Source: an uncultured Clostridia bacterium
GTDB taxonomy: Bacteria > Bacillota > Clostridia > UMGS1883
Direction of reading: 5' to 3'
Length of the DNA: 33,146 nucleotides
NCBI GenBank assembly: GCA_947630975.1
Contig: CANRJP010000020.1
Span: 1-33,146, forward strand
Shown here: one piece after another, positions 6,233 through 32,556 of the stretch
How positions within the stretch are numbered: the stretch's first letter is position 1
How the letters are laid out: the number at the start of each line of letters is the position of its first letter
Translations under genes and position numbers: made by a program
Notes under the pieces: generated by a model
Seen by the model: only the letters and a program-made list of their open reading frames with translations
Told to the model about the DNA's origin: nothing
The model's database searches: none

Positions 6233-6256
6233 ATGGCGTACAAGGAGATGAATTGT

Positions 6257-7502: not shown

Positions 7503-7534
7503 CGCACCCCTATATATGCGCACACGTAAATCAG

Positions 7535-10268: not shown

Positions 10269-10559
10269 CTACAAAATCAGCACTCCTTCGGGATCGTAGG
10301 TTTCCTTTGCGCCTATGTGCTCGACCCCGTTCTTCCAATTGTTGCCAAGATAATATATACGTATGCTGTCACGTTCTTTGTCAATGATTTTTTCCAGTTG
10401 GTTCTTTAATTTCAAAAATGTGCCGTAGTCAACATCTACCTCAAATACTGAATTTTGAACCCTCTGACCGTAGTTGACACAAGCCTTGGCCACCTTGCGC
10501 AGCCGCTTGCTGCCCAACGGGTCAACGGTGGAAACGTCATAGCTGACGACCGCCATCAT
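10269..10559 (-). CDS. cas2: CRISPR-associated endoribonuclease/integrase subunit Cas2 (type I-C)
   Basis: This 96-residue protein has the ferredoxin-like Cas2 fold: MMAVVSYDVST with the conserved aspartate at the end of the first strand, GQRVQNSVFEVDVD in the middle, and DSIRIYYLG before the end. It bridges two Cas1 dimers in the spacer-integration complex. The gene follows cas1 directly, and the AGGTGAT ribosome site overlaps the cas1 stop codon. ATG at 10559 fits that site best; codons at 10568 (GTG) and 10565 (ATG) are in frame. It is the last gene of the operon, next to the leader. Confidence 0.95.
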   Translation of the reverse strand: MMAVVSYDVSTVDPLGSKRLRKVAKACVNYGQRVQNSVFEVDVDYGTFLKLKNQLEKIIDKERDSIRIYYLGNNWKNGVEHIGAKETYDPEGVLIL

Positions 10560-10568
10560 CTTCATCAC

Positions 10569-11591
10569 CTACCTGACCAAAAAACAGGGATACTCATCCA
10601 GCTCGCCACGGACATATCTGGCCATGAGCATACTCTGCACATACGGAAGCAAACCCAGCTTTATTTTTTGCTTCAAATACGGATGCACCATGTCGCTCCG
10701 TTTTTTATCCTGCCACTTGGCAATCACCTTTTTTCTGCCGTCTTTGTTTAGAAAAACCGCTCCGCTCACCTGCTCCTCAAAATCGTCGGCCTTGATTATC
10801 TTAAGATTTATCAAAGTCAGGGTAAACCTTTCGACTATACACCTTACCTCCTCAACAAGATCACAGGCAAGCGACTCACGTCCGGGACGGGGAGCGTGGT
10901 AATAGCCCATATAGCTGTCCAGCCCAACGCTTGTGAGAGCCGAGGCGTAGTCGTTGGTCATGACCGTGTACAAAAACGACAAAAGGGCGTTGACGCGGTC
11001 AAGCGGTGGCCGTTTTGTGCGCTGCACAAAGAGGAAATCTTCCTTTTGATGAAGAATAAGCCTGTTAAAAATCTCAAAATACGCTTTTGCGCCGTTTCCT
11101 TCTATGCCAAGTATGCCGTCGTAGGTCGTTTCGTTGTACACGTCGTCTATATACCCGGTTAAACGTTCGGCGGCGGCGGTCAAAGGCCCATCCTCGTCAA
11201 CCTGCGGATTGTCCCTTATTGTACGCCTAATTACGCTGCGTGTATTGGCCAGCTTCGCCGCGACGGTGTTCTGGCGCAGCTTCACGGGCGGGGTGGAAAA
11301 GAGCTCGAACTGACGCTTTCGCAGGAGAATGTTGCCGCGGGTCTTTCCCTCAACTCTGGCCAGAAAGTGCCCCTGTGGGGAAATGAAGCTTATTGGAATG
11401 CCGTAATCGGCACACTTGCCCATAAGCGCCGGAGAACAGCCGAGATAGCTGAAGCAGCATATTCCCTCGAGGTTGGCGAACGGCAGACGGAGACGAACCT
11501 CGTCCCCTTCACGGCAGACCACGTTTTCTCCGTCAAGGGTGAGGTAAATGTTTTCATCCGTAATATACAGAGTGTTTAAAAGCTTTCGCAT
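10569..11591 (-). CDS. cas1: CRISPR-associated integrase Cas1 (type I-C)
   Basis: This 340-residue Cas1 is of the usual I-C length. The N-terminal beta domain begins MRKLLNTLYITDENIYLTLDG. The catalytic helical domain carries Glu164 in LGIEGNGAKAYF, His232 in YYHAPRPGRESLACDLVEE, and acidic Asp244/Glu247 after it, the metal-binding residues needed to insert spacers. The ATG at 11591 lies inside the end of cas4 (16-base overlap) and is preceded by GGGGGAGG. All key residues are present, so adaptation should be functional. The neighbouring genes cas4 and cas2 complete the adaptation module. Confidence 0.97.
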   Translation of the reverse strand: MRKLLNTLYITDENIYLTLDGENVVCREGDEVRLRLPFANLEGICCFSYLGCSPALMGKCADYGIPISFISPQGHFLARVEGKTRGNILLRKRQFELFSTPPVKLRQNTVAAKLANTRSVIRRTIRDNPQVDEDGPLTAAAERLTGYIDDVYNETTYDGILGIEGNGAKAYFEIFNRLILHQKEDFLFVQRTKRPPLDRVNALLSFLYTVMTNDYASALTSVGLDSYMGYYHAPRPGRESLACDLVEEVRCIVERFTLTLINLKIIKADDFEEQVSGAVFLNKDGRKKVIAKWQDKKRSDMVHPYLKQKIKLGLLPYVQSMLMARYVRGELDEYPCFLVR

Positions 11592-12238
11592 ACGTCCTCC
11601 CCCTTTATCACAAGGCTTTTCACGTCATATTTTACAGTCTTTGACAGGCAAAGGTTTTCGACTGAACAGCCGCCGCACTGCTGTCCCTGAGGCTTCGGCG
11701 GGATAAGGCCGCTTTCAAAGCAGTTCCTCATTCCCGTCAAAAGACCGGTAAGCAGCGCATAATAACGGTCAAAATCAGTGTCAAACGGCAGCCTTACCCT
11801 TTTGCGGGTGTCGGAATAATAAAGCCATCCCTCGCTGTCGCAGTGCCAAACATAGTCGGCGCACAGCTTCTGCGCAAACACCTGAATGGCGTCGGTCTCT
11901 CTTATTTCACCGTCGCGGGGCTGTGTGGGTTTGTATTCCACCAACTTTACCTTGTATCTGCCCTCGAGGCTGGGCACGGCGCAGCCGCCGGCTGACTTCT
12001 CAAATTCAACACAGTCGGCCACGCCATAAATATCCAGCTCATCATTATATAAAGCGACGGAGCTTTTTTCGATTTTCGACGATGATTTCACGTTATGTCT
12101 GCCGGAGTGGACGTTTTCGTGCATGATATTGGCCATGACCACAAAGGCGTTCTCCGCCCAGTCGCCGTTGACCCTCATAAGGGCAAATCTCCGAGGACAG
12201 TACATATAGTGCTGTATGTCCCGGATATTTATTGTCAC
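11576..12238 (-). CDS. cas4: CRISPR-associated exonuclease Cas4
   Basis: This 220-residue protein is a RecB-like nuclease with an iron-sulphur cluster. The cluster ligands are Cys14 (YMYCPRR) and the C-terminal trio Cys188, Cys191 and Cys197 (CGGCSVENLC). The nuclease core shows Asp75 (GVADCVEF), Glu101-x-Lys103 (VEYKP) and Gln119 (AIQVFAQ). Cas4 trims prespacers and helps select those with the right PAM before Cas1-Cas2 integration. The GTG start at 12238 overlaps the cas7 stop as GTGA, with GGAGG upstream inside cas7, so translation is coupled. Confidence 0.95.
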   Translation of the reverse strand: MTINIRDIQHYMYCPRRFALMRVNGDWAENAFVVMANIMHENVHSGRHNVKSSSKIEKSSVALYNDELDIYGVADCVEFEKSAGGCAVPSLEGRYKVKLVEYKPTQPRDGEIRETDAIQVFAQKLCADYVWHCDSEGWLYYSDTRKRVRLPFDTDFDRYYALLTGLLTGMRNCFESGLIPPKPQGQQCGGCSVENLCLSKTVKYDVKSLVIKGEDVCESF

Positions 12239-13098
12239 AGCTTTTCCTCCAGAGTGACACCGGCGGGCATATTTCCGTCAACGGTTATCACATAATCCTC
12301 GTAGCTCCTCGGAACTGTGACGCCGTCCTTTTTCGCGATTTTAACCTTGTCGAACAGGACGCCGGAGGGAGCGCAGCCGAGAGCGTTGTCATGGCGGAAC
12401 ACAATGAGCTTTCTCATGCACATCTTACCGCGAGCGGCACTGTGGTCGTGCTCGAACATATTGATTATCGCCGTCCACAAAAGCTCGAGATCCTCCTCGG
12501 AGAAGCCCGTAACCTTCTGGGCCAACATGGAGGAAACATAGCCTTCCGCCCGGTAAAGGCCGTAGGGAACTATGCTCTTGCGGCCCATTTCTGTCTGGCC
12601 GGTCTCCATTCTGTCCTCCGTCGTTCGAGCCTGACGTGTGATGGACACATCCTGTATGTATATGGGGTCGACGCTTTTGGCAAAGTTGAGCTGCACCGGG
12701 CCGCGGACTATACCGCAGGGATCGTCGCCGGTGCTCATGACCGCGCCGAAGGTCCTGACGTCAAAATAATTCTGACACGCAAACTTTCGAGCTTCGCGTA
12801 CATCGTCCGCATTTTTGCCCTTCTGCTTTGTCTTAAGTCCGTTTTCTTCATATAGGGCCGTAAATTTGGAGTTGAGGGACTTGTCAGGCTTGATAAGGAT
12901 ATTGTATCCCGGTTCGCCCTCCTTGTAAATCTCCACAAAGTTGCGGATCTTGCGTTTGAGACAAACGTCGGTCATGATACCAAGCGATGTCTCGGGGTCG
13001 ATACGCGGCATATTGCCCGCGTCGGGGTCTCCGTTAGGGTTGCCGTTCTCCACGTCAAAAATCATTACGAATTCGTACCTGTTTTTAATAGCTTCCAT
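12235..13098 (-). CDS. cas7: Cascade backbone protein Cas7 (Csd2, type I-C)
   Basis: This 287-residue protein is the Cas7/Csd2 subunit that polymerises along the crRNA. The N-terminus has RYEFVMIFDVENGNPNGDPD, the mark of the I-C form, followed by MPRIDPETSLGIMTDVCLKRKIRNF. The middle contains DVRTFGAVMS and GIVRGPVQLNFAKSVDPI, then RQARTTEDR and GRKSIVPYGLYRAEGY, all in the order expected for the RAMP fold. ATG at 13098 is chosen because AAGGATGG lies upstream; TTG at 13104 is too close to it. It sits between cas8c and cas4 with minimal spacing. Confidence 0.96.
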   Translation of the reverse strand: MEAIKNRYEFVMIFDVENGNPNGDPDAGNMPRIDPETSLGIMTDVCLKRKIRNFVEIYKEGEPGYNILIKPDKSLNSKFTALYEENGLKTKQKGKNADDVREARKFACQNYFDVRTFGAVMSTGDDPCGIVRGPVQLNFAKSVDPIYIQDVSITRQARTTEDRMETGQTEMGRKSIVPYGLYRAEGYVSSMLAQKVTGFSEEDLELLWTAIINMFEHDHSAARGKMCMRKLIVFRHDNALGCAPSGVLFDKVKIAKKDGVTVPRSYEDYVITVDGNMPAGVTLEEKL

Positions 13099-13115
13099 TT
13101 TCAATCCATCCTTTC

Positions 13116-13511
13116 TTAGTTGTTATCATTATTTTCATTGTTTTCATTTTTGGGGGCATTGCCATCCGATTTTTCAAAGAAATTCTGCATCTGCTGATAA
13201 TAGCCGATTATGAACTTGCCCTGATCGACCAGCGGCAGCGTCGCCGGAAAGCTGTCTCCCAGCTTGTCGATTATTTCGCCGATTAGACGGTTGTTCCAGT
13301 CGGCGTAGTCATCCTTCTTCATGTGGTACTGAGCCAGACGCATAAGCTGGGTGAATACCGCCTGAGGCTTGGCGCAGGCCGAAGCGAAATATGAATCTTT
13401 GATCGTCTTGTTCAGTTCTCCCTCCGCGGCGTTCCTTTGGATTCTCTCAAGCACGGCAAAGAGTCTTCCGCAGAGGTAAGCCGGATTTGTGTTATTCTTA
13501 TCCAGTGCCAT
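13116..13511 (-). CDS. cas11c: Internal small subunit Cas11c, translated from within cas8c
   Basis: The last 131 codons of cas8c can be translated on their own. An in-frame ATG at 13511 follows AAGGAGG and an eight-base AT-rich spacer, as good a ribosome site as any in the operon even though it lies inside the larger gene. The product (MALDKNNTNPAYLCGRLFAV...) is helical, the right size for Cas11, and has an Asn-rich acidic tail. In studied type I-C systems Cas11c is made exactly this way and lines the Cascade belly, holding the non-target strand. That it is made here is inferred from the ribosome site and the family. Confidence 0.8.
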   Translation of the reverse strand: MALDKNNTNPAYLCGRLFAVLERIQRNAAEGELNKTIKDSYFASACAKPQAVFTQLMRLAQYHMKKDDYADWNNRLIGEIIDKLGDSFPATLPLVDQGKFIIGYYQQMQNFFEKSDGNAPKNENNENNDNN

Positions 13512-14912
13512 TTTTATTTCCTCCTTTTCATTATTAAATCTCGACCTTCTGTTGACGCAGGCCTTTATTATGCCGGCACGAACATAATTTACATTTTTAT
13601 CAACCTTTACCCGCCGAACCGCTGTTTCCAGCAGACTGTCAGGGTAACGGTAACCATTGATTATTGCCGCGAAGAGCGACGCTATAAGCGGCGGCGAAAC
13701 TTTTTCGTTCTTACTTTTAGGCGAAACCAACTCTTTAAAAATCCTCCAAAGCGGTATCTGCCATTCGCCGCCCTTCTGCATCATGTCCGACTGATGGCGG
13801 GCGACATTTTTAAATACCTCGCCGAATTTGTCACGGTATATGAATTTTTGTGATACCCGCGCCACATTAGGCGCCAAACCGACAACATAGAAGGTCACAT
13901 TCTCGTCAACACCGTCAAAGGCTGACAAATCGGCGTTGCGTCCTTGGGCCATTTCCTTTACCGCGGCATGCAGCATGGCGTCTGTCTCATCGGCGTCCAT
14001 TTCGTCACCGTTAAGCAATGCCCTGAAAATATCGGTTTCCGCCTCGTCATTCTCGGACTGAGCCCAGAACACCATCGTCAGATCCTCCACATACATACGG
14101 TGCTTTGGATCGGCTATGAGCAGATTCAGCGCCTCGGTATATCGCTTCATCACGTCCTGAGAAATGGAGCTGTTATAGGACTGTGACCTGCCGTATGATT
14201 CCTCCGCCGGACTGTTGAAGCAGACTATGGCGGTTCCTGTGGCCTGTCCGCCACGCACTCCCTTTATTTTGTCGTGTATTCTGGCTATGACCGCCGGTTC
14301 GCCGCTGACGGCGCACACTCCGTCGGGTTCGGCCTCGCCGGACGACGCGGCTCTCCACTTCTCTAAAAGGTCTTTATCCCCGTGCAAGGTTATCTCGGGA
14401 TGACCGTCAAGAGCAAAGCAGTAATTTCCGCCGGCGTAATCCTTATCAAGGGCGGTGAGCTTCGGATTTTCCGTTTCGTCCCCGGGCTTCCAATTTATCA
14501 GAAAATTCCTGAAAGCGGTTACTATGGGCGAAGTGAGGCCCTCGGTAAACTCAAGGTTATACTCCACAAATTTTTTGTGCCTTTCTTCGGCCTTTTCTCC
14601 GTCGGGAGTCAGGCGTTTTTCGTTTTTGTCATAGCTGAGGCCGAAAATGTACAGAGGTCTGTGGTCGGCGAGATACGGCACTATAGCCGTGGTCGGGGGC
14701 CTTTCCGGAAAATCCATCTCCATGGGTTCCTTCTTTGTTTTGCCCTTTGCGTCAGGCTGAGTTTCTTTGCGGACATCGGCGATATCGCTGACCGTTCCGT
14801 CAGGCCGGAGCATTATCATGAGACTTATCTTTTGACGGGTCATGCCGGGAGAACTGATCTTCCCCGCGGCGGCCAGCTTGTCGTAGTATTCATTCAGTGC
14901 GCTTATCAGCAT
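13116..14912 (-). CDS. cas8c: Cascade large subunit Cas8c (Csd1, type I-C)
   Basis: This 598-residue protein matches Cas8c/Csd1 in size, position and conserved blocks: MLISALNEYYDKL at the start, YGLSYD-like FGLSYDKNEKR, CFNSPAEESYGRSQSYNSSIS in the middle, and the C-terminal helical region. Cas8c recognises the PAM and starts R-loop formation. The gene begins with ATG at 14912, seven bases inside the end of cas5, with AGGGAGG correctly spaced. The C-terminal quarter doubles as Cas11c. The extreme C-terminus is an Asn/Glu-rich tail (KNENNENNDNN), probably unstructured. It stops 17 bases before the cas7 start. Confidence 0.96.
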   Translation of the reverse strand: MLISALNEYYDKLAAAGKISSPGMTRQKISLMIMLRPDGTVSDIADVRKETQPDAKGKTKKEPMEMDFPERPPTTAIVPYLADHRPLYIFGLSYDKNEKRLTPDGEKAEERHKKFVEYNLEFTEGLTSPIVTAFRNFLINWKPGDETENPKLTALDKDYAGGNYCFALDGHPEITLHGDKDLLEKWRAASSGEAEPDGVCAVSGEPAVIARIHDKIKGVRGGQATGTAIVCFNSPAEESYGRSQSYNSSISQDVMKRYTEALNLLIADPKHRMYVEDLTMVFWAQSENDEAETDIFRALLNGDEMDADETDAMLHAAVKEMAQGRNADLSAFDGVDENVTFYVVGLAPNVARVSQKFIYRDKFGEVFKNVARHQSDMMQKGGEWQIPLWRIFKELVSPKSKNEKVSPPLIASLFAAIINGYRYPDSLLETAVRRVKVDKNVNYVRAGIIKACVNRRSRFNNEKEEIKMALDKNNTNPAYLCGRLFAVLERIQRNAAEGELNKTIKDSYFASACAKPQAVFTQLMRLAQYHMKKDDYADWNNRLIGEIIDKLGDSFPATLPLVDQGKFIIGYYQQMQNFFEKSDGNAPKNENNENNDNN

Positions 14913-15634
14913 CTCAATTCCTCCCTGTACTTCGCCACGTCTATAACCCCGTCCACCATGTGGGGCCGATAGAAGCTGGGCCTCGCCGAATCGGAAAACT
15001 TGGGCTCGTCCCAGTCGCCGTTCAGCGGACGGCCCTTATCCTCAAACTCCATGCGGTACAACATGAAGCCCAAATCCCGGTCGCCTTTAAGGCTCTCGTG
15101 TATTTTTTCGTAGGGGAACTCCTCCACGGGATATATCTCCCTTACCGAGAACTCACGACACCCTAACACCGGCTGGCGGAAGCACTGGCCGTTTTCAAGC
15201 CTGCGCCGCAGAATATTAAAGTGCTTGGCCTCTCCCTCGTCCTCATGGTCGCTGCGCAGGCCCGTAAGCTCAAAGTGAAATCCCACACCGTACAGTACGT
15301 CCCTGAGCACCATGCCGCCGCGCTGGTTTATGCTTTCCTTCGTGTAAATTTCCGGCTCGCCGCCCTTGCCGTTCATGGCGCTTTTCACGGCGGAAAGGTT
15401 GACCTTGTCCTTGACCTCGTTCCGGCGTATGTTGATAAAATTGATCGGATTGAAAACCACAATTTCGTCTATTATGTATCGGATAGCTGGTTTCCAATAT
15501 ACGCACTTGATAAGGCCTTCCAAAGCTCCCGGCGTCGGCACGTCGTAGCTCACGCGCTCAACCTTTAACTCCGGACGGGTAAAGCAGGCATAATCGCCGC
15601 TGACCATGATTTTAAACCCATAGTCTGAAGACAT
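14906..15634 (-). CDS. cas5: Cascade subunit and crRNA nuclease Cas5c (Cas5d)
   Basis: This 242-residue protein is the I-C Cas5, which in this subtype replaces Cas6 and cuts the CRISPR transcript within each repeat. The start region (MSSDYGFKIMVSGDYACFTRPELKVERVSYDVPTPGA) is characteristic: a RAMP strand followed by the RPELK...SYDVPTP block. INFINIRRNEV and KHFNILRRRLENGQCFRQPVLGCREF follow in the expected order. ATG at 15634 is preferred over an upstream in-frame start at 15712 because AAGGAGG lies eight bases before it and because a promoter lies within the longer version. It overlaps cas8c by seven bases. Confidence 0.96.
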   Translation of the reverse strand: MSSDYGFKIMVSGDYACFTRPELKVERVSYDVPTPGALEGLIKCVYWKPAIRYIIDEIVVFNPINFINIRRNEVKDKVNLSAVKSAMNGKGGEPEIYTKESINQRGGMVLRDVLYGVGFHFELTGLRSDHEDEGEAKHFNILRRRLENGQCFRQPVLGCREFSVREIYPVEEFPYEKIHESLKGDRDLGFMLYRMEFEDKGRPLNGDWDEPKFSDSARPSFYRPHMVDGVIDVAKYREELRC

Positions 15635-15659
15635 AATTTCATCCTCCTTTTTATTTATA

Positions 15660-15688
15660 ATTATATCACGATTTGCCGAATATTGCAA
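15660..15688 (-). promoter_or_regulatory. Internal cas operon promoter upstream of cas5
   Basis: On the minus strand TTGCAA (15688-15683) and TATAAT (15665-15660) are 17 bases apart, in the 87-base gap between cas3 and cas5. The site would let the Cascade and adaptation genes be expressed without cas3. Confidence 0.6.
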
Positions 15689-15721
15689 GCAGTTTTTGGT
15701 GAATTTTGCCAATTCTATTAA

Positions 15722-17872
15722 CTATAATATATAGTTTGTCTCCCGTTCCAGATCAAGGCCCACGTAATCCTTATCGTAATATGCCGGATTGTTCAGCATA
15801 CACACCCCTCCGGGGAGCTGTTCGATCAATCCCATTTCCAGCATGGTCTTGAACTCATAGTGGCGAACCGAGGCGCAATACTTTTGCAGACGGCGCTTGA
15901 CCGAAAGATTGCCCTGCCTCAGGGTTTCTATGTCATTCATCAATTCATCATTTTCCCCGTCGGGAATAAGTATGCCTATGGTCTCGTTGTCAATGAGGCC
16001 GAAGCTCTCGGCGTAGCTGCGGAAGGGAATGGCGTCAGGTTTGAGGGACAGCATATCCTCGGTTATACTGTTCTTGGATATCAGCTCGTCGTTCCACGCA
16101 AAAAGACGGCGGTAGTATTCCTTTATGCAGTCCTCGCCGGTTATATTGCCGTACTCCTCAAATAGGCTGCGTGTGATGTTTGCCTTGATCGCTACCTCGC
16201 CATAGGCGCTGCCGGTCTCAAAGACTATTACGTCGCCCGACTCCATTTTTCCCTCACGATTGCAGCGGCCTCCCGCTTGCACTACGTTGTCGAGGCCGGC
16301 GTTTTCCCGCATTACGGTTCGGAAATCGAGATCGACCCCCGCCTCGATAAGGGACGTGGAGATAACGGTCACATCTGCCCCGGCATCAAGCCGCGACTTT
16401 ATTTTGCATATTACCTTTGACCGGTGGGCCGGCGTCATGTGAGTGGAAAGATGATAGACTTTGTCGTCCTTCCTGCACAAATTGAAAAGCCTTTTCGCCG
16501 TTTTTCGGGAGTTCACCACCACAAGGGCGCTGCCGCGCTCACCGGCCATGGCGGCAATTTCTTCAAGGCTTTTCTGTCCGACATAGCTGTAGCGGCATTT
16601 TTCAAACGCACTGAAAAGAGACTTGTCCTCCACGGCGCCGGCAACGCTGCTGCCGGGCAGATATTTTTTCATATAGGCGGAATAGTCCGGCATGGTGGCC
16701 GACATAATGAGAGCCGTGGAATTGAGATACTTAGTTATATATCCCACCGCCCTGAGACAGGGCTGTATATATTGGGTCGGGAGCATATGGAACTCATCGA
16801 AAACTATCACGCTGTCGGCCAGATTGTGAAGCTTGCGCAGCCGGCTGCCCTTGTAATGGTACAGGGACTCAAAGAACTGAATGTTTGTCGTCACGATGAG
16901 ATCGGCGTCCCAGTTTTCGCAGGCTCGCTTCAGCTTTTCAACGGTACTTTCGTCCTCGTTGGTCTCGGTGTCAAAGCTGTAGTTGGAGTGATGCTGGAGC
17001 ACCGGCAGCACGTCGCCGAAAATTCCCTCAAATACCTCGGCGGTCTGCTCAATGATGCTGACATAGGGTATTATGTAAATTATCCTCTTTTTCTTTTCCC
17101 TTATGGCCGTTTCGAGGGCGGCTTTCAGACTGCAAAGGGTCTTGCCGCTGCCGGTGGGCATATCAATGAAATATACATCCGCCCCGTCGCGCATACGCCG
17201 ATAGACCTGGGACTGTATTTCGCCGCGGGCTTTTTGCAGCTTTGTAGTCGGTCGGTAGGAATCCAGTTTTTTGGTCAGAAGCTCGAGGGCTTTTTCAAAG
17301 CTGCCGTGGACTCCCCGCTCCGCTCCGGGCGAAAAGAAACGCTCGGTATCGATAAAATCCGCGTCGGTGAGGCAGGAGAAAAGATATCTCGTCAGGAAGG
17401 CATAGAGCTCGATCACGTCTTCGGCGGTCTTACATTCTCTCATGAAAGAGGGCAGGCTGTCCTTGGGCATAGTGAATTGGATCTCGCTCTTGTAAGCCGA
17501 ACAGTCCTCTCTTTCCCGCTTCAAAAGGCCGTGGAGCGTGGCGGCGTCACTGTTGTCCGCTTTCGTGCCGCCATCGTGAAGGCCGCTGTGATGACCGGCG
17601 ATACAGTACTCCACCATTGGCAGATAGGAGCCTTTACCCTTGCCGTTGATCTCCTGCGCACCGTAACGGGCGTGCTCAACCTGAATATTGGCGCCGTTTA
17701 TGCGCTTCTGAAACGATCCGGTGTACTTTCCCAGATCGTGAAGCAGTCCGCAGAGCCGGGCATAATCCCGAAATTCGGGGATCGCATACCCGGCGCACAG
17801 CTCGGACACATTTTCGAGGTGTTCCTTAAGGGTTTGAAATTTGTTGTCTGAACCGGTGTGAGCTTTGAACAT
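15722..17872 (-). CDS. cas3: CRISPR nuclease-helicase Cas3 (HD and DExH domains)
   Basis: This 716-residue Cas3 has an N-terminal HD nuclease and a superfamily 2 helicase. HD motifs: LLHDLGKYTGSFQ with His45-Asp46, and AGHHSG at 92-96. Helicase motifs: Walker A PTGSGKT (239-245), FDEFH (motif II, 358-362), SAT (391-393) and QAGGRCNRE (motif VI, 532-540). A Cas3 C-terminal region follows to the end. It unwinds and degrades DNA marked by Cascade. ATG at 17872 fits the AAAGGAA ribosome site; the ATG at 17881 would touch it. It is the first gene of the operon and has its own promoter; all catalytic motifs are intact. Confidence 0.97.
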   Translation of the reverse strand: MFKAHTGSDNKFQTLKEHLENVSELCAGYAIPEFRDYARLCGLLHDLGKYTGSFQKRINGANIQVEHARYGAQEINGKGKGSYLPMVEYCIAGHHSGLHDGGTKADNSDAATLHGLLKREREDCSAYKSEIQFTMPKDSLPSFMRECKTAEDVIELYAFLTRYLFSCLTDADFIDTERFFSPGAERGVHGSFEKALELLTKKLDSYRPTTKLQKARGEIQSQVYRRMRDGADVYFIDMPTGSGKTLCSLKAALETAIREKKKRIIYIIPYVSIIEQTAEVFEGIFGDVLPVLQHHSNYSFDTETNEDESTVEKLKRACENWDADLIVTTNIQFFESLYHYKGSRLRKLHNLADSVIVFDEFHMLPTQYIQPCLRAVGYITKYLNSTALIMSATMPDYSAYMKKYLPGSSVAGAVEDKSLFSAFEKCRYSYVGQKSLEEIAAMAGERGSALVVVNSRKTAKRLFNLCRKDDKVYHLSTHMTPAHRSKVICKIKSRLDAGADVTVISTSLIEAGVDLDFRTVMRENAGLDNVVQAGGRCNREGKMESGDVIVFETGSAYGEVAIKANITRSLFEEYGNITGEDCIKEYYRRLFAWNDELISKNSITEDMLSLKPDAIPFRSYAESFGLIDNETIGILIPDGENDELMNDIETLRQGNLSVKRRLQKYCASVRHYEFKTMLEMGLIEQLPGGVCMLNNPAYYDKDYVGLDLERETNYIL

Positions 17873-17895
17873 AATTAGCATTTCCTTTCTTTCGT

Positions 17896-22379: not shown

Positions 22380-25300
22380 ATGAAAAAGCTGATCACTCTT
22401 ACCTTGTCGGCGGTTCTGGCAGTGGCGGCGCTGCCATCCGTTTCCCTTGCGGAGGAAGAATATCTGACCCGCCACGTGTACGACGGCTGGGATCCCGTAT
22501 ACGACACCACAAAGGAAAAATATCACACTTATGAAACAGAGCACTTCCAGATATTCTGGGGCGACAGCGGCGAGTCCGGCAAGGTAAACAGCTCCTTTTT
22601 GCAGAACTGCGAGCGGGTGCTGGAAAACTGCTGGGACAAGTTTGTCGTCGAAATGGGCATGACTCAGCCCACCACCTCAAACCTCCGGGACGGAGACCGC
22701 ACCACGCAGTATAAAGTCAATGTCATACTCAACGAAACGGGCGTGGAGGGTTACGGCGGCTGGGCCTTCGGCGGCGTGGACAGAGAGGGTTATCCATATT
22801 TCATGTGCGCCCCCGACGCCATGAACGACTGGGTGGTACCGCACGAGATGGGTCACGTAATGCACTTTGCCCAAGGCCGCAACGCCTGGGAGGGCAACGG
22901 CTACCTTGGCCCCTGGTATGAGGCCATCGGCAACTGGTTCCGGGAGCAATACATATATGATGAAAACTGCTACCCGGAGGGGGCAAATTACCGCACTGAC
23001 CTTTCCGCGCTGTACCTTCGCGCAAGCAGCCTTATGGCCGTTAACGGCCGGGCATATTATGAGGCATGGCCCCTGCTCCAGTACCTGACGGACAACCCGG
23101 ACGGTCTGCCGGATTACGGCGACAATTTCATCGCAAAGCTGCTGGGTTATCATCCCGACGCAAGCGACGGCTTCTACAATGTCCTCGCCGCCAACACTGA
23201 GAACAGCGTTCAGGATACCATAGGCCTGTTTGCTTCACATATGGCGTTCATGGACTTTTCGCATAAGAAAAACTACAACGAAAAAATAGACGAAATGCTG
23301 AAAAACGGCTGGATGTACCGACAGCAGCGTTACACCGGGGCCGTACCCTACGGTGATGTTTCCGCCGCCTATACGGTTCCCGTACAAAGGACTCCTCAAA
23401 GCTATGGCTACAACATTATACCTCTCAGCGGCACGGGTGAGGTTTCCGTGACGCTTAAGGGACTTACTGACATTCCCGGCGCCGGCTGGCGGGCAAGGCT
23501 TGTCGCGGGGAAAAAAGACGGAGCCGTACACTACAGCCGACTTTTCGGCAGCGGCGAGACCGGCAGCATAAACGTCGCTTCCGGTGAGGAATTATACCTG
23601 ACCGTCGCGGCGACTCCCTCTCTCGAAACCGCGACAAAGCTGGGTTTGGGCGGCTGGAGCGGCTTTAGCGAGGGCCAGTACCCATATGAGAACAAGACGC
23701 AATACCCGTATTGCTTCACTCTGTCAAACGCGCTGCCCGAGAGCCGTTCAATAAACGTACCTGAAACCTTGCGGCACCCCAACGGCGGCGGAATGGTGGC
23801 CCCAACGGCCAAAGTGGAAGAAACCGCCTACGTCGGCCCCGACGCCATGGTGCTGGGCTGGGCTCAGGTCGGCGGTAACGCGGTCATCGACGGCAACGCA
23901 ATAGTTGCCGGAGGCGCAAATGTCAGCGGCAGCGCCTACATCGGCGGCGACGCCATAGTTATGGACACGGCCACGGTGACCGACAATGCGAGAGTTCTTG
24001 AAAACGCTCTTGTGTGCGGCAATTACACTGTGAGCGGCAGCGCCACCGTAAAGGGGCAGGCTATACTTCTCGGCAGCGGAACCGCCGCCGGACAGGCAAT
24101 AGCCTACGGCGACCTGTTCGAGGATGAGGGAAAAATCATAGAGGCCGGAGCCTTTGCCGGCTATCACTGCCTCGACGTCAACGTGAACCCCGGCTACTTC
24201 AATCAGTCCGGCGAGAACCGCTACGCAAGAGCCTGCGCCGACAGGCTCCAGGCGGCATACGAATTTAACGGCAATTTCCGGGACACGGTCGCTTACAGCG
24301 ATATGTACGGGGTAAACGGCCCGGCCTTAAGGGACGGGACGGCCTTATTCGACGGCACCGGATATCTTGTGGTTCCCGGTTCCGCTCTAAGCTACCGAAA
24401 CGCCGAGCTTACTCTCAGGTTAAAATACGAAAGCGGGCCGGTATTTGACTTCGGCGGACTCTGTCTTGAATCCATCGACGGCAAGCCTGTTCTGACTGCC
24501 GACGGCAGCAGAATTTCCCTTGACAAACCGTATGCCGGCGGCTGGAACGACGTGAGCGTAAAATTTTTGGACGGCAGTGTGACGCTTACGGTAAACGGCG
24601 AGAGCAAGACCGTGGACTCATCTCCGCTGTACAGCTTCGGGGCAAAGAATGAAAACCGTCTCGGCAAAGGGTTTATCGGCGAGATCGACAGCTTCCGCGT
24701 TTATCTTTACGACGGCGGCGACTCCGGCAGCACCGGCGACCTTCCCTCAGACGTCGAGGTCGTTTTTCAGGCCGGCGGCGATCGGAAATCCCTCGGCGCA
24801 ATGACCTCCGACAACAATTCCGTCTGGTGCGGATGGCAGGCGGACGCCGAGACCGTGACGGCGGGAGAAAGCCTCGACCTTCCGGCCGGATATGGGGTAA
24901 AGGTCTCCTCTCCCGTTTACGGCACGGAAAAATTCGCCGTTGAATTTACTCCCTCCGGCGACAGCGTATATCCCGACCACGCGGTCATCGACGGCGCCGG
25001 CAAGGTCATTTTCGCCCACCGCTTCGCCAACGACGCCAAGTTCATTTATCCCGGCCGGGGCGAGCAGTATTTCTGCGGTTCGGACAACGTGGACGATTAT
25101 GCCGGGCAGAAACGTCTCGGCAGCTTTATAGCCGAAGCGGTTTATCCCGGTTCTGCCATTTCCGAACGCGGCGCGGCGGCCTACGGCGGCGGCGGTACAA
25201 TAAGGATAACGGTGGAAAACACATTCTGGTCTCAAGAGCTCAACGCTTTTTGCTCCCGTGCGGTGAACAAATCAAAAAATCTCGATGCGGTACAGACCGG

Positions 25301-25607
25301 CGACCCGGTATATTCCGTAACATATTCCGTTGTCAACGGAAGCATGACATTACCCGTCAGCTCGTCATACTACATGGGTCGAGCCGAAGGCTTTGGCGGA
25401 ATAAGCAGCTTCGGCACATGGAAGGACAAGACCGTAAGCTACGGCGGACTGAGGGTATACGCTGACAGCGTACCTTCACGGATGGTTCCCGCCGAAGGCG
25501 GAGTAGCCGTCACCAACATTGAGGGCGGCAGCGTAGTTTTTGCCGTCTACGCCGAACGGGCAGCAGCAGAGCGAAGCCCACGCCAAAGACTATTTCTCTC
25601 ACCATAG
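22380..25607 (+). CDS. Secreted Svx-like protein: metallopeptidase-type domain, beta-helix repeats, LamG domain; altered C-terminus
   Basis: This 1075-residue protein has a signal peptide (1-24, cut after SLA). The first domain (about 28-330) resembles the DUF6055/Svx group and holds the zinc-protease motif HEMGH at 155-159, followed by WYEAIGNWF with a possible third ligand, Glu181. Residues 476-585 are left-handed beta-helix hexapeptide repeats (AYVGPDAMV, AVIDGNAIV, AYIGGDAIV). A LamG-like sandwich follows (625-778), then an unassigned region (795-1057). Relatives include Svx virulence proteins of pectin-degrading plant pathogens. The last 17 residues (AERAAAERSPRQRLFLSP region) are not protein-like: they are the antisense of the convergent MATE gene, so the natural end has been lost near 25553. 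Confidence 0.75.
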   Translation: MKKLITLTLSAVLAVAALPSVSLAEEEYLTRHVYDGWDPVYDTTKEKYHTYETEHFQIFWGDSGESGKVNSSFLQNCERVLENCWDKFVVEMGMTQPTTSNLRDGDRTTQYKVNVILNETGVEGYGGWAFGGVDREGYPYFMCAPDAMNDWVVPHEMGHVMHFAQGRNAWEGNGYLGPWYEAIGNWFREQYIYDENCYPEGANYRTDLSALYLRASSLMAVNGRAYYEAWPLLQYLTDNPDGLPDYGDNFIAKLLGYHPDASDGFYNVLAANTENSVQDTIGLFASHMAFMDFSHKKNYNEKIDEMLKNGWMYRQQRYTGAVPYGDVSAAYTVPVQRTPQSYGYNIIPLSGTGEVSVTLKGLTDIPGAGWRARLVAGKKDGAVHYSRLFGSGETGSINVASGEELYLTVAATPSLETATKLGLGGWSGFSEGQYPYENKTQYPYCFTLSNALPESRSINVPETLRHPNGGGMVAPTAKVEETAYVGPDAMVLGWAQVGGNAVIDGNAIVAGGANVSGSAYIGGDAIVMDTATVTDNARVLENALVCGNYTVSGSATVKGQAILLGSGTAAGQAIAYGDLFEDEGKIIEAGAFAGYHCLDVNVNPGYFNQSGENRYARACADRLQAAYEFNGNFRDTVAYSDMYGVNGPALRDGTALFDGTGYLVVPGSALSYRNAELTLRLKYESGPVFDFGGLCLESIDGKPVLTADGSRISLDKPYAGGWNDVSVKFLDGSVTLTVNGESKTVDSSPLYSFGAKNENRLGKGFIGEIDSFRVYLYDGGDSGSTGDLPSDVEVVFQAGGDRKSLGAMTSDNNSVWCGWQADAETVTAGESLDLPAGYGVKVSSPVYGTEKFAVEFTPSGDSVYPDHAVIDGAGKVIFAHRFANDAKFIYPGRGEQYFCGSDNVDDYAGQKRLGSFIAEAVYPGSAISERGAAAYGGGGTIRITVENTFWSQELNAFCSRAVNKSKNLDAVQTGDPVYSVTYSVVNGSMTLPVSSSYYMGRAEGFGGISSFGTWKDKTVSYGGLRVYADSVPSRMVPAEGGVAVTNIEGGSVVFAVYAERAAAERSPRQRLFLSP

Positions 25608-27037: not shown

Positions 27038-30000
27038 TTAAACGGTGACCGCCGGACACAAGGGCCTCATGGACTCGAGGGCGTCCCAAAGGAAAAGCCT
27101 GTCTCCGGCTTCGACCTCAAGGGCATAGGTACCGTCAGTGACAGACAGAACCTCCGCTTTTGTCAAAGCGCCGCCGGAGTAGGCGGCCCTGACAAGAACC
27201 GCCTCGCCCTCAAGGCCGGAAATAACTATCCGACCGTCCTCACAGTTCATCGATACGGCTGTATGGATATCGCCGTCAGCCTCATAGCCGTCGGCCAAAG
27301 CCGCGGTAAGCCTGCCGTCGGTCACGGTAAAGTCATAGCCGCCGGCCTCAAGGGCGAATTTGGCCTTAAGCCCGCCGTTTCGCTGTTCCATGCCGAGGTA
27401 GCTCACGCCCGGGACATTGACAAAGCCTTGTACGCTCTCGGCGGGAACCGGAAGATAGAGGGTCGCGGACGTGTTGGCCGGAATTACGGCGTGATATTCG
27501 GTCAGAGCCGCGTTTTCGTCAGCCTCCCATTGAGACCGAACTGTGCCGTAGAAGGAGTCGTACCGCCCGCTCACCGAACGGATGCGTTCCTCGTCGTTAT
27601 ACTTGATTCCCTTATCAAGCGTCGGCTGAAGTATAATATCCTTAAAGCCGTTTTCGGACTCTATGCCCGCCATGTACCGGTACATCCACTCGGCCACGGA
27701 GCCGTAGGCAAAGTGATTGAAGGAGTTCATCTCCGCGTCGCCGAAGCCCTTGTCCCTGTCATAGGAGTTCCAGCGTTCCCATACAGTCGTCGCCCCCGAC
27801 CTTACCTCGAAGAGCCAGGAGGGCATTTCGGTGCTTAAAAGCAGATCGTAGCTCACATCGGAGCGGCCCGCGTCGCTGAGGACGGGCGTGATAATATTTG
27901 AGCCAAGGAAGCCGACGCCGAGGGTATTTTTGCCGTACTTCGCCCTGACGCTGCCGGGGTCGGGGTTTTCGTTCCTGATATTTTCCACCAGCATGGCGAG
28001 GGCCTCGTCCCGCATCTCATTGCTGTCATACCAGCCCAGCTTGAGCATCCACAGAAGGGCGGTCTGGGAATTGTCCTCAATAACTCCGGCCTTACCGGCG
28101 TCGGCCATGAACAGGCCGTTATATCCGCCTTCGGAGGAATAGACCTTCAGGCTGTGAGCCTCGCCGGCGGTGGCGCTGTACTCACCCACCTCCCGCCAGT
28201 CGTTTTTGTCGTCGGAAACCTCAATGGTGAAGCGTCTGGGATGGTTGACGCAGACGCCGGGAGTCATGGACTCGTTTTTATCATAGCGGCAGAATATTTT
28301 GACACTGCTGATATTTCGGGCCTCGCCAAGATCAACGGTGACCGATATGGGCGAAGCGGCAATATCACTGCCGGGATTTGTATTTGAGCTGTAGCCGTCT
28401 GTGCCCGTGTATTTTCCGTCCGTGAGATTGTCTATGTTCCAGCCGTAGGCGTTAAAGGTGTTGTCTGACTCGGCGGGTCTTCCGGCGGCGTAATTCGTGT
28501 TTCCGTCCTCGCCGCAGACCTCCAGTTCCATTATCTGGAGACGGTGCTCGCCGTCGTCCGAGGTGCCGGGGCCGGTCTCGGTGGCGGTGAGCCGCAGATA
28601 TTGAGCCTGTGCGGGTTCAAACTCCGCCGTCATTACATGATTTTCAAAGGTGGGGGCGGGGAGCACGGTAACGCCCTCACGGCCAACGAAGCTGACGTAG
28701 GCATCCAAATAGGCCCGCTTCTGCCGCCGGAATTTTTCCGAATACTGCGCTTCTCTCGTGCCGTCACCCACAACGGCCGCCATTTCGGCCATGAGCGAGG
28801 TTACGTATCCGTAGTACAGGTCGGCGATTATATGGTAGCCGGAGCCTTGAAAGGCCAGCCAGTCGCCGAAGCCGCGGGCATCGACCTCCGGAGCCTGATC
28901 CGAGGCCCTCTCGTGCTCCTGCAAATAATTCATGTAGGCGTTCATCGCCTCCCAGTTGTCCTTTAAGAACTGCACGTCGCCGGTCTGCACGTAATAGGAG
29001 TAAGCGTTAATTACCTCCACGTCGCTCCAGCCCGTGGCCCAATGGCGGAAATAGCCGCTCAGCGCCAGCACCGCCGCCGGAAAGCCGTCCTCAAGGGTAT
29101 TGTCGCTCAAAAGCTCCTGATACCCGTTCAAAAAGGCGGCGCTGTCAAAGTTGTACATCGCCGTCCGGGCAAAGGCTTGGGCGTCTCCCGTCCAGGCCAG
29201 CCGCTCGTCACGCTGGGGACAGTCGGTGGGAATGGTGAAGAAGTTGCTGAGCTGGCCGTAAAGGGCATTTTTGAACAGCCGGTTCACGTCTTGGTTATTG
29301 GTTTCGATGAAGCCCGTCTGACGGCTGACCGAGGACAGCGCCCGGGAGCGAAGCCCGGTTACGGTGACGTCGCCGCCTATGGCCTTGAGCTCCACATACT
29401 GATACCCGAAAAAGCTCACGGACGGTTGGTACACCTCCTCGCCGGTTCCGGCAAAGGTGTAATGAACCTCGGAGCGGGCGGCCCGCAAACTCTTGGTGTA
29501 AATACTGCCCTTGGGGCCGCTGGCCTGGGTGGCTCCGTTGCCCACGGCGCTGCCGTCGTTGAGCATTTCGGCAAATTTCATGTTAAGGCCTACGCCCTTG
29601 GCCGCGCTGAACTTTATCTCCGGCACGGCGGTCAGGTTCTGGCCCATGTTTACCACCATTGTCTGGCCGTCTTTCAAAGTGACGCCGTCTTTGAACATAT
29701 CCGGCCCGCTGTATTCGGCCAGCACCTCTATCTCGCCGCCGGGGTAAGAGGAGTCGGCTTTGGTTCCGCTGTAAACCTGGGCGGAAACGGGGAGCTGTTC
29801 AAAAGCGTCGGCTATTCGGCCCGACATTCCCCTTGAGGGGCGAATTTCGCCGGCATAGGTCACGGTCTCAAGGCTGCGGGGATAAAGTACGCTGTTCCAT
29901 ACCTCGCCCGCGTCGCATTCGGCCACGGTCGTCCAGCTTTGGCCGTCGTCGGAGACCTGTATCTCGTAGATTTTTGGATAGTTGGGACAAAGCTCGCCGC

Positions 30001-31387
30001 TGACCGAGGCCTTTTCCGTTCGGCAGACGATATTTACGGTTGTTATCTCCGCATTGTTGGCAAAAGTAAAATCCACGGTAACGGGAGCGGCAGGCTTATA
30101 TTCGGGCAGACTCTCTTTCGCCAGTATATTAGAAGTATAGCCGCTGTAATTGCCGGGGCCAAAGCCGCCGTCATTGATGTTGGAAAGCCTCCACTGGGGA
30201 GGAGCTTCGAAATTATCGGAAGCCGTCACCGCCGCGCCAATGGCGTGATTGGTTCCCGACGCGTCCAAAGCCTCCAGCTCCATTATCTGGAGGCGGGTCT
30301 CGCCGTCCTCCTTCACCGCCGGGCCTATCTCGGATACGGACAGCCGCATATACTTCGCGGCCTTCGGATTTTCAATATCGGTTTTAATTATGTACGGGGT
30401 ACCCTTGTTTTCGACCGAACCCACCCAACCGGAGCCGTCATAGCCGGGAGCCTGATAATCGCCCAGAGCCGCGAGCCTCCCGGCGTCGTAATCCTCGCCG
30501 TAGTACACGCCGTTGCCGGTAATGGGGCCGTTTAGAGTGCCCTTCCAATCCGAGGTATCGGTAATTATTTTTTGAGTGCCCTTATCGGTGTTTATGACAA
30601 GCATGGCCTTGACCGCCGGACGGCCCGAAAGGGCGCCAAGCACGCCCTCGGCGCCGCCGTTGTTCCAGCCGGTACCGGCGGTGACGGTGACTGCCGCCGA
30701 GGACTGACCCTTGAGCTGCTCGGTCACGTCGTATGTCTCGTACTCGATAGACCGGTCGCCGTTGCCGTAGCCCGGATTCATAAAAGGGTACACCTTTTCT
30801 CCGTTTTCCACCTTATACACGGGCTGTCCGTTGACCCGGGCGGAATACACTCCCAGAGCCGTTATGTACAGCCGGGCGGAAACGACGTTCCCGTCGATAG
30901 CCTTTTCCGTCCTGAATATGGGCGCGGCCGAGGACGCCGGCATGGCGATGAAATCCGCTTTCCGCCAGTCGGGATCGCCGTCCACGGCGGTCTCAAAGTA
31001 CGCCTCATCGCAGACGGACTCGTTGCCCTCTTTATCCCAGACCGTGACAGTCCAGCCGTACCTGACGGCGTCGTCCAAGGCCGGGCCACCGTAGGGAACG
31101 CCCACGGAAAGCTCGCTCTCGACCCTGCCGGAATTCCAGACGGTCTTATCGCCGTCCGTCACATTGATTTCGTAAGCCGACTGCCCGGCGCCGACGCGCT
31201 CCGACTCCATTCTCCAACCGAAGCGGACGCCGTCGGCGTCTATTCCCAAAGGGTCGGTCATGTAATTTACCGTCGGCGAAACAACGGTAAATCCCGCCCC
31301 TTTCGCCACAGCGGGCGCCGCCGCGCCGGTAGATGTCATTAAAAATGTCAGTGCCAGGGCCATCGCCCCCTTTCTAAGGTTTTTCAT
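27038..31387 (-). CDS. Secreted GH78-type alpha-L-rhamnosidase with two inserted F5/8-type C modules
   Basis: This 1449-residue protein has a signal peptide (to about residue 29) and the domain order of bacterial alpha-L-rhamnosidases. N-terminal beta domains include SARLYITALGVYSARVNGQPV. The catalytic (alpha/alpha)6 barrel covers about 700-1240, and a C-terminal beta-sandwich follows. Catalytic signatures are IPTDCPQRDERLAWTGDAQ, with the likely acid Glu728, and TTVWERW with the likely base Glu1204. Two related F5/8-type C (carbohydrate-binding, discoidin-like) modules are inserted: one at about 344-500, within the N-terminal beta region, and one at about 925-1085, within the barrel. Both share YxRLxxxExGP...ETRLQIMELE-like text. 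The ATG follows AGGAGG. The divergent AraC gene is its likely regulator. It should release rhamnose from plant polysaccharides or glycosides; the substrate is inferred. Confidence 0.9.
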   Translation of the reverse strand: MKNLRKGAMALALTFLMTSTGAAAPAVAKGAGFTVVSPTVNYMTDPLGIDADGVRFGWRMESERVGAGQSAYEINVTDGDKTVWNSGRVESELSVGVPYGGPALDDAVRYGWTVTVWDKEGNESVCDEAYFETAVDGDPDWRKADFIAMPASSAAPIFRTEKAIDGNVVSARLYITALGVYSARVNGQPVYKVENGEKVYPFMNPGYGNGDRSIEYETYDVTEQLKGQSSAAVTVTAGTGWNNGGAEGVLGALSGRPAVKAMLVINTDKGTQKIITDTSDWKGTLNGPITGNGVYYGEDYDAGRLAALGDYQAPGYDGSGWVGSVENKGTPYIIKTDIENPKAAKYMRLSVSEIGPAVKEDGETRLQIMELEALDASGTNHAIGAAVTASDNFEAPPQWRLSNINDGGFGPGNYSGYTSNILAKESLPEYKPAAPVTVDFTFANNAEITTVNIVCRTEKASVSGELCPNYPKIYEIQVSDDGQSWTTVAECDAGEVWNSVLYPRSLETVTYAGEIRPSRGMSGRIADAFEQLPVSAQVYSGTKADSSYPGGEIEVLAEYSGPDMFKDGVTLKDGQTMVVNMGQNLTAVPEIKFSAAKGVGLNMKFAEMLNDGSAVGNGATQASGPKGSIYTKSLRAARSEVHYTFAGTGEEVYQPSVSFFGYQYVELKAIGGDVTVTGLRSRALSSVSRQTGFIETNNQDVNRLFKNALYGQLSNFFTIPTDCPQRDERLAWTGDAQAFARTAMYNFDSAAFLNGYQELLSDNTLEDGFPAAVLALSGYFRHWATGWSDVEVINAYSYYVQTGDVQFLKDNWEAMNAYMNYLQEHERASDQAPEVDARGFGDWLAFQGSGYHIIADLYYGYVTSLMAEMAAVVGDGTREAQYSEKFRRQKRAYLDAYVSFVGREGVTVLPAPTFENHVMTAEFEPAQAQYLRLTATETGPGTSDDGEHRLQIMELEVCGEDGNTNYAAGRPAESDNTFNAYGWNIDNLTDGKYTGTDGYSSNTNPGSDIAASPISVTVDLGEARNISSVKIFCRYDKNESMTPGVCVNHPRRFTIEVSDDKNDWREVGEYSATAGEAHSLKVYSSEGGYNGLFMADAGKAGVIEDNSQTALLWMLKLGWYDSNEMRDEALAMLVENIRNENPDPGSVRAKYGKNTLGVGFLGSNIITPVLSDAGRSDVSYDLLLSTEMPSWLFEVRSGATTVWERWNSYDRDKGFGDAEMNSFNHFAYGSVAEWMYRYMAGIESENGFKDIILQPTLDKGIKYNDEERIRSVSGRYDSFYGTVRSQWEADENAALTEYHAVIPANTSATLYLPVPAESVQGFVNVPGVSYLGMEQRNGGLKAKFALEAGGYDFTVTDGRLTAALADGYEADGDIHTAVSMNCEDGRIVISGLEGEAVLVRAAYSGGALTKAEVLSVTDGTYALEVEAGDRLFLWDALESMRPLCPAVTV

Positions 31388-31548: not shown

Positions 31549-32556
31549 GTGGAAAACCCGCTAAAAGCCGAGATAGACAAAATCACCGCCGAAGTGCGCC
31601 GTGACCCGGCCCACATACGGCGGTGGCTGGAAAAGGAGGAGGAGCTGAAAAAATCGCCGGAGCTTTTTCTGCGCCACAGGAGGTTTTTCACCGAGGACTT
31701 TGTCTTTGAACCCGGCGAGGACATCATGGTCTATCCCGATTTCAACTACCCCCTGCCAAAGCCGAAGCCGTCCGACCCTCCGGAGTTCTGCGATCCGGTA
31801 CTGCACCGGCACGAGTTCTATGAGATGTTTTATGTGTACAGCGGGCTCTGCGAGTGTATATATGAAAATCAGACCTACGCTCTGGGGCCCGGCTCCCTCT
31901 GCGTTTTTAACACCCTGTGCAGCCACAGGCTGCACAATATCGGCGGCGAAAGTCTCGTCTATAATATAATGCTTCGCGAAAAATCCTTCATCACGGAGCT
32001 GGTTCCGGTTTTGGGCGAAAACGATTTGTTTTTCAACTTTTTTCTCCGATCCTTCAACGGCGGCGCCGACCGGCCAAACCTTATGCTCTTCGATTTGGAA
32101 CCCGGCGGGCCGGCGGAGGCATACGTTTTCGGCCTCATAAGGGAATACCGACAGGGCAGAGCCAACAGTCAAAGCATGATGAAGCTGATGTACGCCTCCC
32201 TGCTCATCGAGCTGTCCCGTATGTACATGAGCGGCGGCGAAAGCGACGGGGATTTCGCCCCCATAATGGCCTATATCAGCGAAAACTGGAGCCGGGTCAC
32301 AATGAAGGAGCTGTCCTCGCTGTTCCACATATCTCAAAGCGGACTTTCCCGTCTGTTCAAAGAGAGAACCGGGACGGACTTTTCCGACTACATACGGCGG
32401 TTCCGCATGGAGAGGGCGGCCCGGATGCTGGCGCGGTCGGAGCTGACCGTGGAAAAGATAGCCGAGCTCTGCGGCTACAGCCAGCGGGCCTCCTTTGACA
32501 AGGAGTTTAAGAAGTTCACCGGCGTCACGCCCTGTCAGTACCGTAAGGAGCTGTAA
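31549..32556 (+). CDS. AraC-family transcriptional regulator
   Basis: This 335-residue protein has a cupin-type sensor half and an AraC DNA-binding half. The cupin part shows VLHRHEFYEMFYVYSG, with His86 and His88, and YALGPGSLCVFN. The C-terminal 100 residues hold two helix-turn-helix motifs: MKELSSLFHISQSGLSRLFKE and VEKIAELCGYSQRASFDKEF, ending GVTPCQYRKEL as the family does. The start is GTG at 31549, preceded by AAAAGGAGG. It is transcribed away from the rhamnosidase gene, with overlapping promoters, so it most likely controls that gene in response to a sugar such as rhamnose (inference). A terminator follows at 32728. Confidence 0.92.
   Translation: MENPLKAEIDKITAEVRRDPAHIRRWLEKEEELKKSPELFLRHRRFFTEDFVFEPGEDIMVYPDFNYPLPKPKPSDPPEFCDPVLHRHEFYEMFYVYSGLCECIYENQTYALGPGSLCVFNTLCSHRLHNIGGESLVYNIMLREKSFITELVPVLGENDLFFNFFLRSFNGGADRPNLMLFDLEPGGPAEAYVFGLIREYRQGRANSQSMMKLMYASLLIELSRMYMSGGESDGDFAPIMAYISENWSRVTMKELSSLFHISQSGLSRLFKERTGTDFSDYIRRFRMERAARMLARSELTVEKIAELCGYSQRASFDKEFKKFTGVTPCQYRKEL

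Follow-up and report, generated by a model that had tools for sequence, protein, structure and literature searches.

Two apparently circularly permuted F5/8-type modules nested in a clostridial GH78 alpha-L-rhamnosidase, one of them within the predicted catalytic barrel

Binding modules nested in TIM-barrel hydrolases are already known. According to the available part of PMC5735674, the GH13 amylase SusG has a CBM58 inserted in its B domain, and deletion of this CBM58 lowered the activity on insoluble starch; the available part of PMC7848910 describes two CBM4 modules in the beta3-alpha3 loop of the GH10 xylanases Pm25/Xyn10C. Here we analyse a GH78 alpha-L-rhamnosidase gene of 1449 amino acids (27038..31387, - strand; identified from the open reading frame list, Pfam and the closest solved chains) in a 33,146-nucleotide stretch of DNA (the window; contig CANRJP010000020.1) from an uncultured bacterium of a gut-type Clostridia lineage. 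The enzyme is interrupted twice by modules of the F5/8 type, and one of them is placed by the predicted model inside the (alpha/alpha)6 barrel. As judged from sequence and model comparisons, the strands of both modules stand in a circularly permuted order compared with ordinary F5/8 domains, the end strands coming first. Neither nesting in the GH78 barrel nor a natural permutation of an F5/8 or CBM32 module was found on point in our searches of open-licence PMC papers. Engineered permutation of another module, CBM21, reportedly exists.

The two modules are homologous, with 33% identity over 200 columns (E 1e-28), and both contain the motif-like cores (GPAVKEDGETRLQIMELE and GPGTSDDGEHRLQIMELE) that an earlier, preliminary description of this DNA had pointed out. 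That description had also put the insertions in the N-terminal beta region and in the barrel, and Pfam, the comparison of loci and the model agree with this. Insert 1 occupies residues ~331-497 (29897..30397, -; delimited by module alignment, rotation and cut-point scan), between the N-terminal domain and the beta-sandwich. Insert 2 covers residues ~905-1095, with a core at 915-1077 (28157..28645, -). The limits first given, 344-500 and 925-1085, were right in location and slightly narrow. For the whole protein the F5/8 scores are 53.3 and 54.1 bits against cut-offs of 28.2 and 27.8 (PF00754 and PF22633, respectively, here and below). Insert 2 alone in native order also exceeds both (40.4 and 45.2 bits), while insert 1 alone falls slightly under them (24.5 and 25.1 bits), and we account for this by its permutation. 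The W, DG, GY, R, C-N-P and SxD-W positions are invariant in all 11 module copies of both inserts, and profiles of the modules match solved clostridial modules with E values from 2e-6 to 1e-3. We take several of the solved PDB entries to carry the CBM32 label. Sequence does not support CBM67 as the identity of the inserts, as they do not match the extra stretch of the rhamnosidase SaRha78A (~129-295 of 3w5m), a stretch that we presume to be its CBM67.

In both inserts a block of the C-terminal type precedes the body of the module. The block of insert 1 spans residues 331-378 (30254-30397, -) and its body residues 379-497 (29897-30253, -); for insert 2 they are residues 915-963 (28499-28645, -) and 964-1077 (28157-28498, -). 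Neither shows the canonical order, in which the C-terminal strands are last, and both have their new termini between the '...SxDGxxWxxV' and 'xFxPxxAxYxRL' strands. We therefore file the inserts as a circularly permuted F5/8 variant and not as ordinary members, a property that the preliminary description had overlooked. The module profile matches canonical PDB modules (4lks, 2w1q, 7rg7) in two pieces in reversed order. For example, in 4lks profile positions 98-162 fall at chain positions 56-113 and profile positions 12-29 at 132-148. The second pieces of these matches are weak (2.5 to 9.5 bits), and 4a42 showed the body piece alone.

When the inserts were rotated so that the block follows the body, they aligned in one piece to the canonical modules of loci L039, L069 and L112. 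Rotation raised the PF00754 score of insert 1 from 24.5 to 29.0 bits, so that with 28.1 bits for PF22633 it passes both cut-offs, and that of insert 2 from 40.4 to 51.8 bits, its coverage of the 127-position PF00754 profile extending from 8-82 to 8-116. In a cut-point scan, in which every third residue was tried as the new start, both inserts scored best when cut at offset 48, the predicted joint, insert 1 rising from 51.2 to 65.5 bits and insert 2 from 62.6 to 84.3 bits. For each of three canonical domains, left out of the profile in turn, the native order was the best. An isolated model of insert 2 was also obtained (predicted local distance difference test, pLDDT, 78.4; predicted template modelling score, pTM, 0.80). 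Canonical chitosan-binding modules and the CBM BT3015C superpose on it from residue 50-52 onward (Z 7.3-8.2) and cover only model residues 49-172 of 181. Antibody light chain matches and other rows under Z 5 were taken as chance.

The order of block and body was compared with the position of the module by running separate block and body profiles on 93 GH78-search and related loci (80 GH78 loci, 12 further loci and L039) and on 16 Streptomyces loci. All modules within GH78 chains (20/20) read block then body: two each in L041, L042, L044, L045, L153, L154 and the query (the last two from the rotation and the cut-point scan), and one each in L043, L155, L160, L161, L164 (partial) and L192. Every module that follows the enzyme part at the C-terminus (21/21) starts with the body, and in 18 of them a block was detected after it; L039, L069 and L112 have one each, and L156, L157, L158, L159, L162 and L163 three each. 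In L155, Pfam finds a further C-terminal module, canonical and of full length, which is under the profile thresholds and outside the count of 21. The 20/20 and 21/21 are not counts of independent events, the profiles having been trained on 20 of these 41 modules; L039 was counted irrespective of its enzyme type, and L156-L163, except L160 and L161, match the enzyme part of the query weakly or not at all. The tandem C-terminal arrays read body-block-body-block. The tandem modules of L045 and L154 at the site of insert 1 (site 1) read block-body-block-body, with an ambiguous phase.

The statement of the preliminary description that F5/8 modules usually sit at protein ends thus holds for the canonical ones; the permuted ones occur at three internal sites, namely site 0 (between the Ig and N-terminal domains), site 1 and site 2, the last being that of insert 2. 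The permuted modules at site 0 (L155, L160, L161, L192) belong to Clostridium methylpentosum, a family relative, Massilioclostridium coli and a Streptomyces. A site-0 module had no match in a plasmid collection, and the permuted Streptomyces one had no sequence match to ~129-295 of 3w5m. Another Streptomyces locus, L182, has at site 0 an insert of another module type, with a weak 3keto-disac_hyd match and no match among solved chains. Six other GH78s (L069, L089, L099, L112, L117, L118) have some 400-600 residues separating the Ig domain from the N-terminal one, which by eye look like tandem jelly-roll modules of another kind, unlike F5/8. Nested modules being permuted versus C-terminal ones being canonical is a testable rule for the entry of sugar-binding domains into enzymes. 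It is possible, although we would not rely on it, that permutation is what makes the F5/8 module nestable in GH78. The permuted form would have been cut out of register from body-block-body-block arrays and set at the three internal sites, with the canonical form kept at the C-terminus, and the relocated termini would turn the binding face to the pocket. If true, a lectin-like domain could be placed inside a catalytic barrel by a design rule of general validity.

The barrel itself is recognised by Bac_rhamnosid6H with 275.8 bits (cut-off 24.5), the match being split in two stretches. E728 in DERLAWTGD (residues 727-735; E728 at 29204..29206, -) and E1204 in TTVWERWNS (residues 1200-1208; E1204 at 27776..27778, -), which from family knowledge we take to be the general acid and the general base, respectively, stand on either side of insert 2, in line with the flanking catalytic motifs of the preliminary description. 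Both are invariant in a 56-row alignment, as are D722, W732, D735, W787, W843 and H1225. These positions, with D722 as a neighbour, were mapped by motif and spacing from KoRha, whose rhamnose contacts and catalytic pair are given in the available part of PMC4690510. With eight invariant pocket positions, the barrel is very probably active despite the insertion.

A model of residues 142-1341, built with 56 sequences (pLDDT 83.1, pTM 0.73), has twelve barrel helices: alpha1 699-715, alpha2 735-746, alpha3 750-767, alpha4 790-802, alpha5 805-824, alpha6 851-873, alpha7 876-897, alpha8 1108-1117, alpha9 1123-1138, alpha10 1160-1172, alpha11 1176-1184 and alpha12 1226-1239 (model numbers plus 141). 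It superposes on 3w5n (Z 40.8, root-mean-square deviation 2.3 A, 712 residues) and 6gsz (Z 41.4, 2.5 A, 707 residues), so the predicted barrel is undisturbed. Insert 2 forms the alpha7-alpha8 loop (whole loop, residues 898-1107) and is therefore predicted to lie within the barrel, where the preliminary description had placed it. In (alpha/alpha)6 barrels the odd-to-even loops form the active-site face. This rule is borne out by the model, in which E728 lies in alpha1-alpha2, W787 just ahead of alpha4, W843 in alpha5-alpha6 and E1204 in alpha11-alpha12, all odd-to-even loops. By helix parity in the model, insert 2 is on the active-site face as well.

The distribution of the inserts was evaluated in the best 80 of 581 GH78 loci of a genome contig collection; the Massilioclostridium coli locus is outside this sample and was found by a separate search. 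The barrel insert is present in 4/80 (L041-L044), which speaks against a common GH78 feature, an outcome that the preliminary description had named as one that would refute it; the M. coli relative has both inserts. In the other 76 loci the alpha7-alpha8 loop has 14-45 residues. Insert 1 is found in L041, L042 and L044, and two modules stand in tandem there in L045. In all, six genomes have the barrel insert, including that of the cultured M. coli. A search of 391 genomes of the class gave insert matches in G000, G003, G004, G005 and G009, the other matches, in G012 and G338, being a site-0 and a C-terminal module. Among 398 genomes of the phylum only G000 matched, and among 197 genomes of the family of M. 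coli only M. coli itself (G786) has the barrel arrangement. Among 200 genomes of the family of G784 it was absent, and modules occurred outside the barrel only. The barrel family was found by Pfam in 144/391 class genomes, all single-stretch among the best matches listed; split matches lie outside these, and hence there is no clean count of barrel inserts from this search. Four further genomes of this family, and that of M. coli, contain homologues with the same insert, which is therefore not an assembly artefact.

In the module tree, the site-2 inserts form one clade (support 97/94), and the site-1 inserts, including the tandem ones, form another (96/98). Recent in-place duplication of one insert from the other was rejected, since the inserts group by site. 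The GH78 core tree does not resolve the order of L153, L043, (L045, L046, L154) and the group of the window. L043 is without insert 1, and L045, L046 and L154 are without insert 2. From the site clades and these scattered absences, a single gain of each insert, with loss in some lineages, is probable. Ratios of nonsynonymous to synonymous substitution rates (dN/dS, Nei-Gojobori; dS was saturated against the M. coli homologue) are, where computable, 0.14-0.24 (insert 1), 0.16-0.31 (insert 2) and 0.06-0.19 (barrel halves). Both inserts are under purifying selection.

We consider it probable, with moderate confidence, that the gene encodes a secreted, exo-acting GH78 rhamnosidase, whose two permuted F5/8-type (discoidin, CBM32-like) modules bind plant glycan near the pocket. 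Its N-terminal segment looks like a signal peptide by inspection, so secretion is plausible. Our best guess is that the modules would bind glycan of a plant polysaccharide that bears rhamnose and keep it close to the catalytic pocket, and that their two-point attachment to the enzyme, which may be rather rigid, would be of benefit. SusG and the GH10 enzymes with CBM4 are precedents in which nested modules aid action on insoluble or complex substrate. The gut-type lineage has relatives named 'Lapin', which we read as rabbit. Several points weigh against this proposal. The profiles of the cut-point scan and of the block and body survey were built from few sequences, and the face assigned to insert 2 in the model follows from helix parity. 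In L045, L046 and L154, the nearest relatives that lack the barrel insert, the active site is unchanged, and so insert 2 is dispensable for the fold. Identity to the M. coli homologue is 47-48% in the inserts versus 61-77% in the barrel; the inserts evolve faster, which also fits a looser role.

This faster evolution, together with the predicted anchoring of insert 2 at the active-site face, would also suit a structural or specificity role, in which the inserts would bind no sugar themselves but mould the pocket on its aglycone side, or an interface within an oligomer, and limit which rhamnosides can enter. The outer aglycone chamber of KoRha is built by residues of both subunits, according to the available part of PMC4690510, and so extra bulk at this side could alter specificity. 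We regard such a role as unlikely, because the F5/8 features are kept in all 11 copies, and because the same kind of module at both sites, with a tandem pair at site 1 in Lachnospiraceae relatives, fits binding valency better. The variable length (14-45 residues) of the alpha7-alpha8 loop in the 76 loci and the gain or loss of modules in L043, L045, L046 and L154 would be expected if length-variable loops had simply taken up mobile F5/8 modules with little function, but we find this improbable given the purifying selection on both inserts (dN/dS 0.14-0.31) and the retention of the insert of each site across genera down to 47% identity. The preliminary description had proposed a clamp, with a single polysaccharide chain held by both modules across the active site. 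Two related modules, one of them at the active-site face, would be in its favour, but GH78 is described as exo-acting, its deep pocket taking a single rhamnose (PMC4690510, available part). A literal clamp does not fit such an enzyme, and the pair is not conserved as a unit, since L043 has one module and L045 none in the barrel; we think the clamp very improbable. Finally, there might be no real permutation if each leading block paired with a different body, for example that of insert 1 with insert 2, as in a split canonical tandem. The C-terminal body-block-body-block arrays and the ambiguous phase of L045 and L154 leave room for this, but it is hardly credible, as L043 has insert 2 alone, so that its block has no other partner, and insert 2 alone is predicted as a single compact sandwich.

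The rest of the chain is that of a GH78 enzyme, the nearest solved chains being the GH78 enzymes 3w5m, 6gsz and 6i60, and four companion GH78 domains each score above their own Pfam cut-off. These are Ig_Rha78A_N (residues 36-134; 30986..31282, -), Bac_rhamnosid_N (residues 167-328; 30404..30889, -), the concanavalin-like domain Bac_rhamnosid (residues 574-673; 29369..29668, -) and Bac_rhamnosid_C (residues 1243-1319; 27431..27661, -). By Pfam and the model, the barrel portion preceding insert 2 spans 28697..29323 (-), and the second part, with helices alpha8-alpha12 (residues 1108-1242), is placed by the model at 27662..28066 (-). The chain ends in a short module (residues 1376-1449; 27041..27262, -), and these 74 residues match four other places in the same genome with 39-52% identity, which by sequence makes them a C-terminal module shared within the genome. 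A divergent gene for an AraC-family regulator (31549..32556, +) adjoins the rhamnosidase gene, and a functional link between them is suggested by position alone. Near the rhamnosidase gene there is also a DUF6055 protein of 1075 amino acids with a weak hexapeptide match (window 22380-25607, +).

Elsewhere in the window, a CRISPR array of more than 30 repeats lies beside Cas genes (window 7503-9985 and 10269-17881, -). The adjacent genes match Cas1, Cas4, Cas7, Csd1, Cas5 and Cas3, and from this gene set we take the system to be type I-C. The repeat alternates between ...CCCCACGAGGGG... and ...CCCCGCGAGGGG... block by block, most clearly near 8945. One repeat-spacer unit is present in two identical copies, at 9414 and 9482. 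A transposase-like open reading frame with an rve integrase core (window 6233-7438, +) adjoins the array.

What sets this locus apart is a GH78 (alpha/alpha)6 barrel interrupted between its two catalytic residues by what appears to be a naturally permuted module. As insert 1 alone scores under the Pfam cut-off in its permuted order, such modules may be missed or cut short in automated annotation. SaRha78A of Streptomyces avermitilis (PDB 3w5m/3w5n) has the same GH78 domain chain and active site and also a sugar-binding module in its N-terminal part; this additional stretch, however, follows the Ig domain and precedes the N-terminal one, and its barrel is uninterrupted. In SusG the module is nested in the catalytic domain as here, but the barrel is a TIM barrel, the module is of another family, and no permutation is mentioned in the available part of PMC5735674. 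The GH10 enzymes Pm25/Xyn10C likewise show nesting in a barrel loop, but in a (beta/alpha)8 barrel and with a CBM4 tandem at one site (PMC7848910, available part). Canonical CBM32/F5-8 modules (4lks, 2w1q, 4zy9) share with the inserts the sequences of body and block and the elements of the fold, but in the reversed order. Among solved chains with Z above 8, the galactanase BT0290 (6eon), which is named in none of the papers listed, alone superposes on the insert-2 model from its first residues onward (Z 12.5, 3.3 A, 137 residues, model residues 1-153; Foldseek probability 1.00, E 9.9e-3). Both block and body are covered. It is another enzyme, with 18-21% identity, and may, on the model, already exemplify this strand order. 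A close counterpart is the GH78 homologue of M. coli (L153), an open reading frame of 1689 amino acids with a longer C-terminus bearing FIVAR repeats and a sortase-like tail. It is 54% identical over query residues 2-1368 and has both inserts at the same two sites, so that experiments need not start from an uncultured genome.

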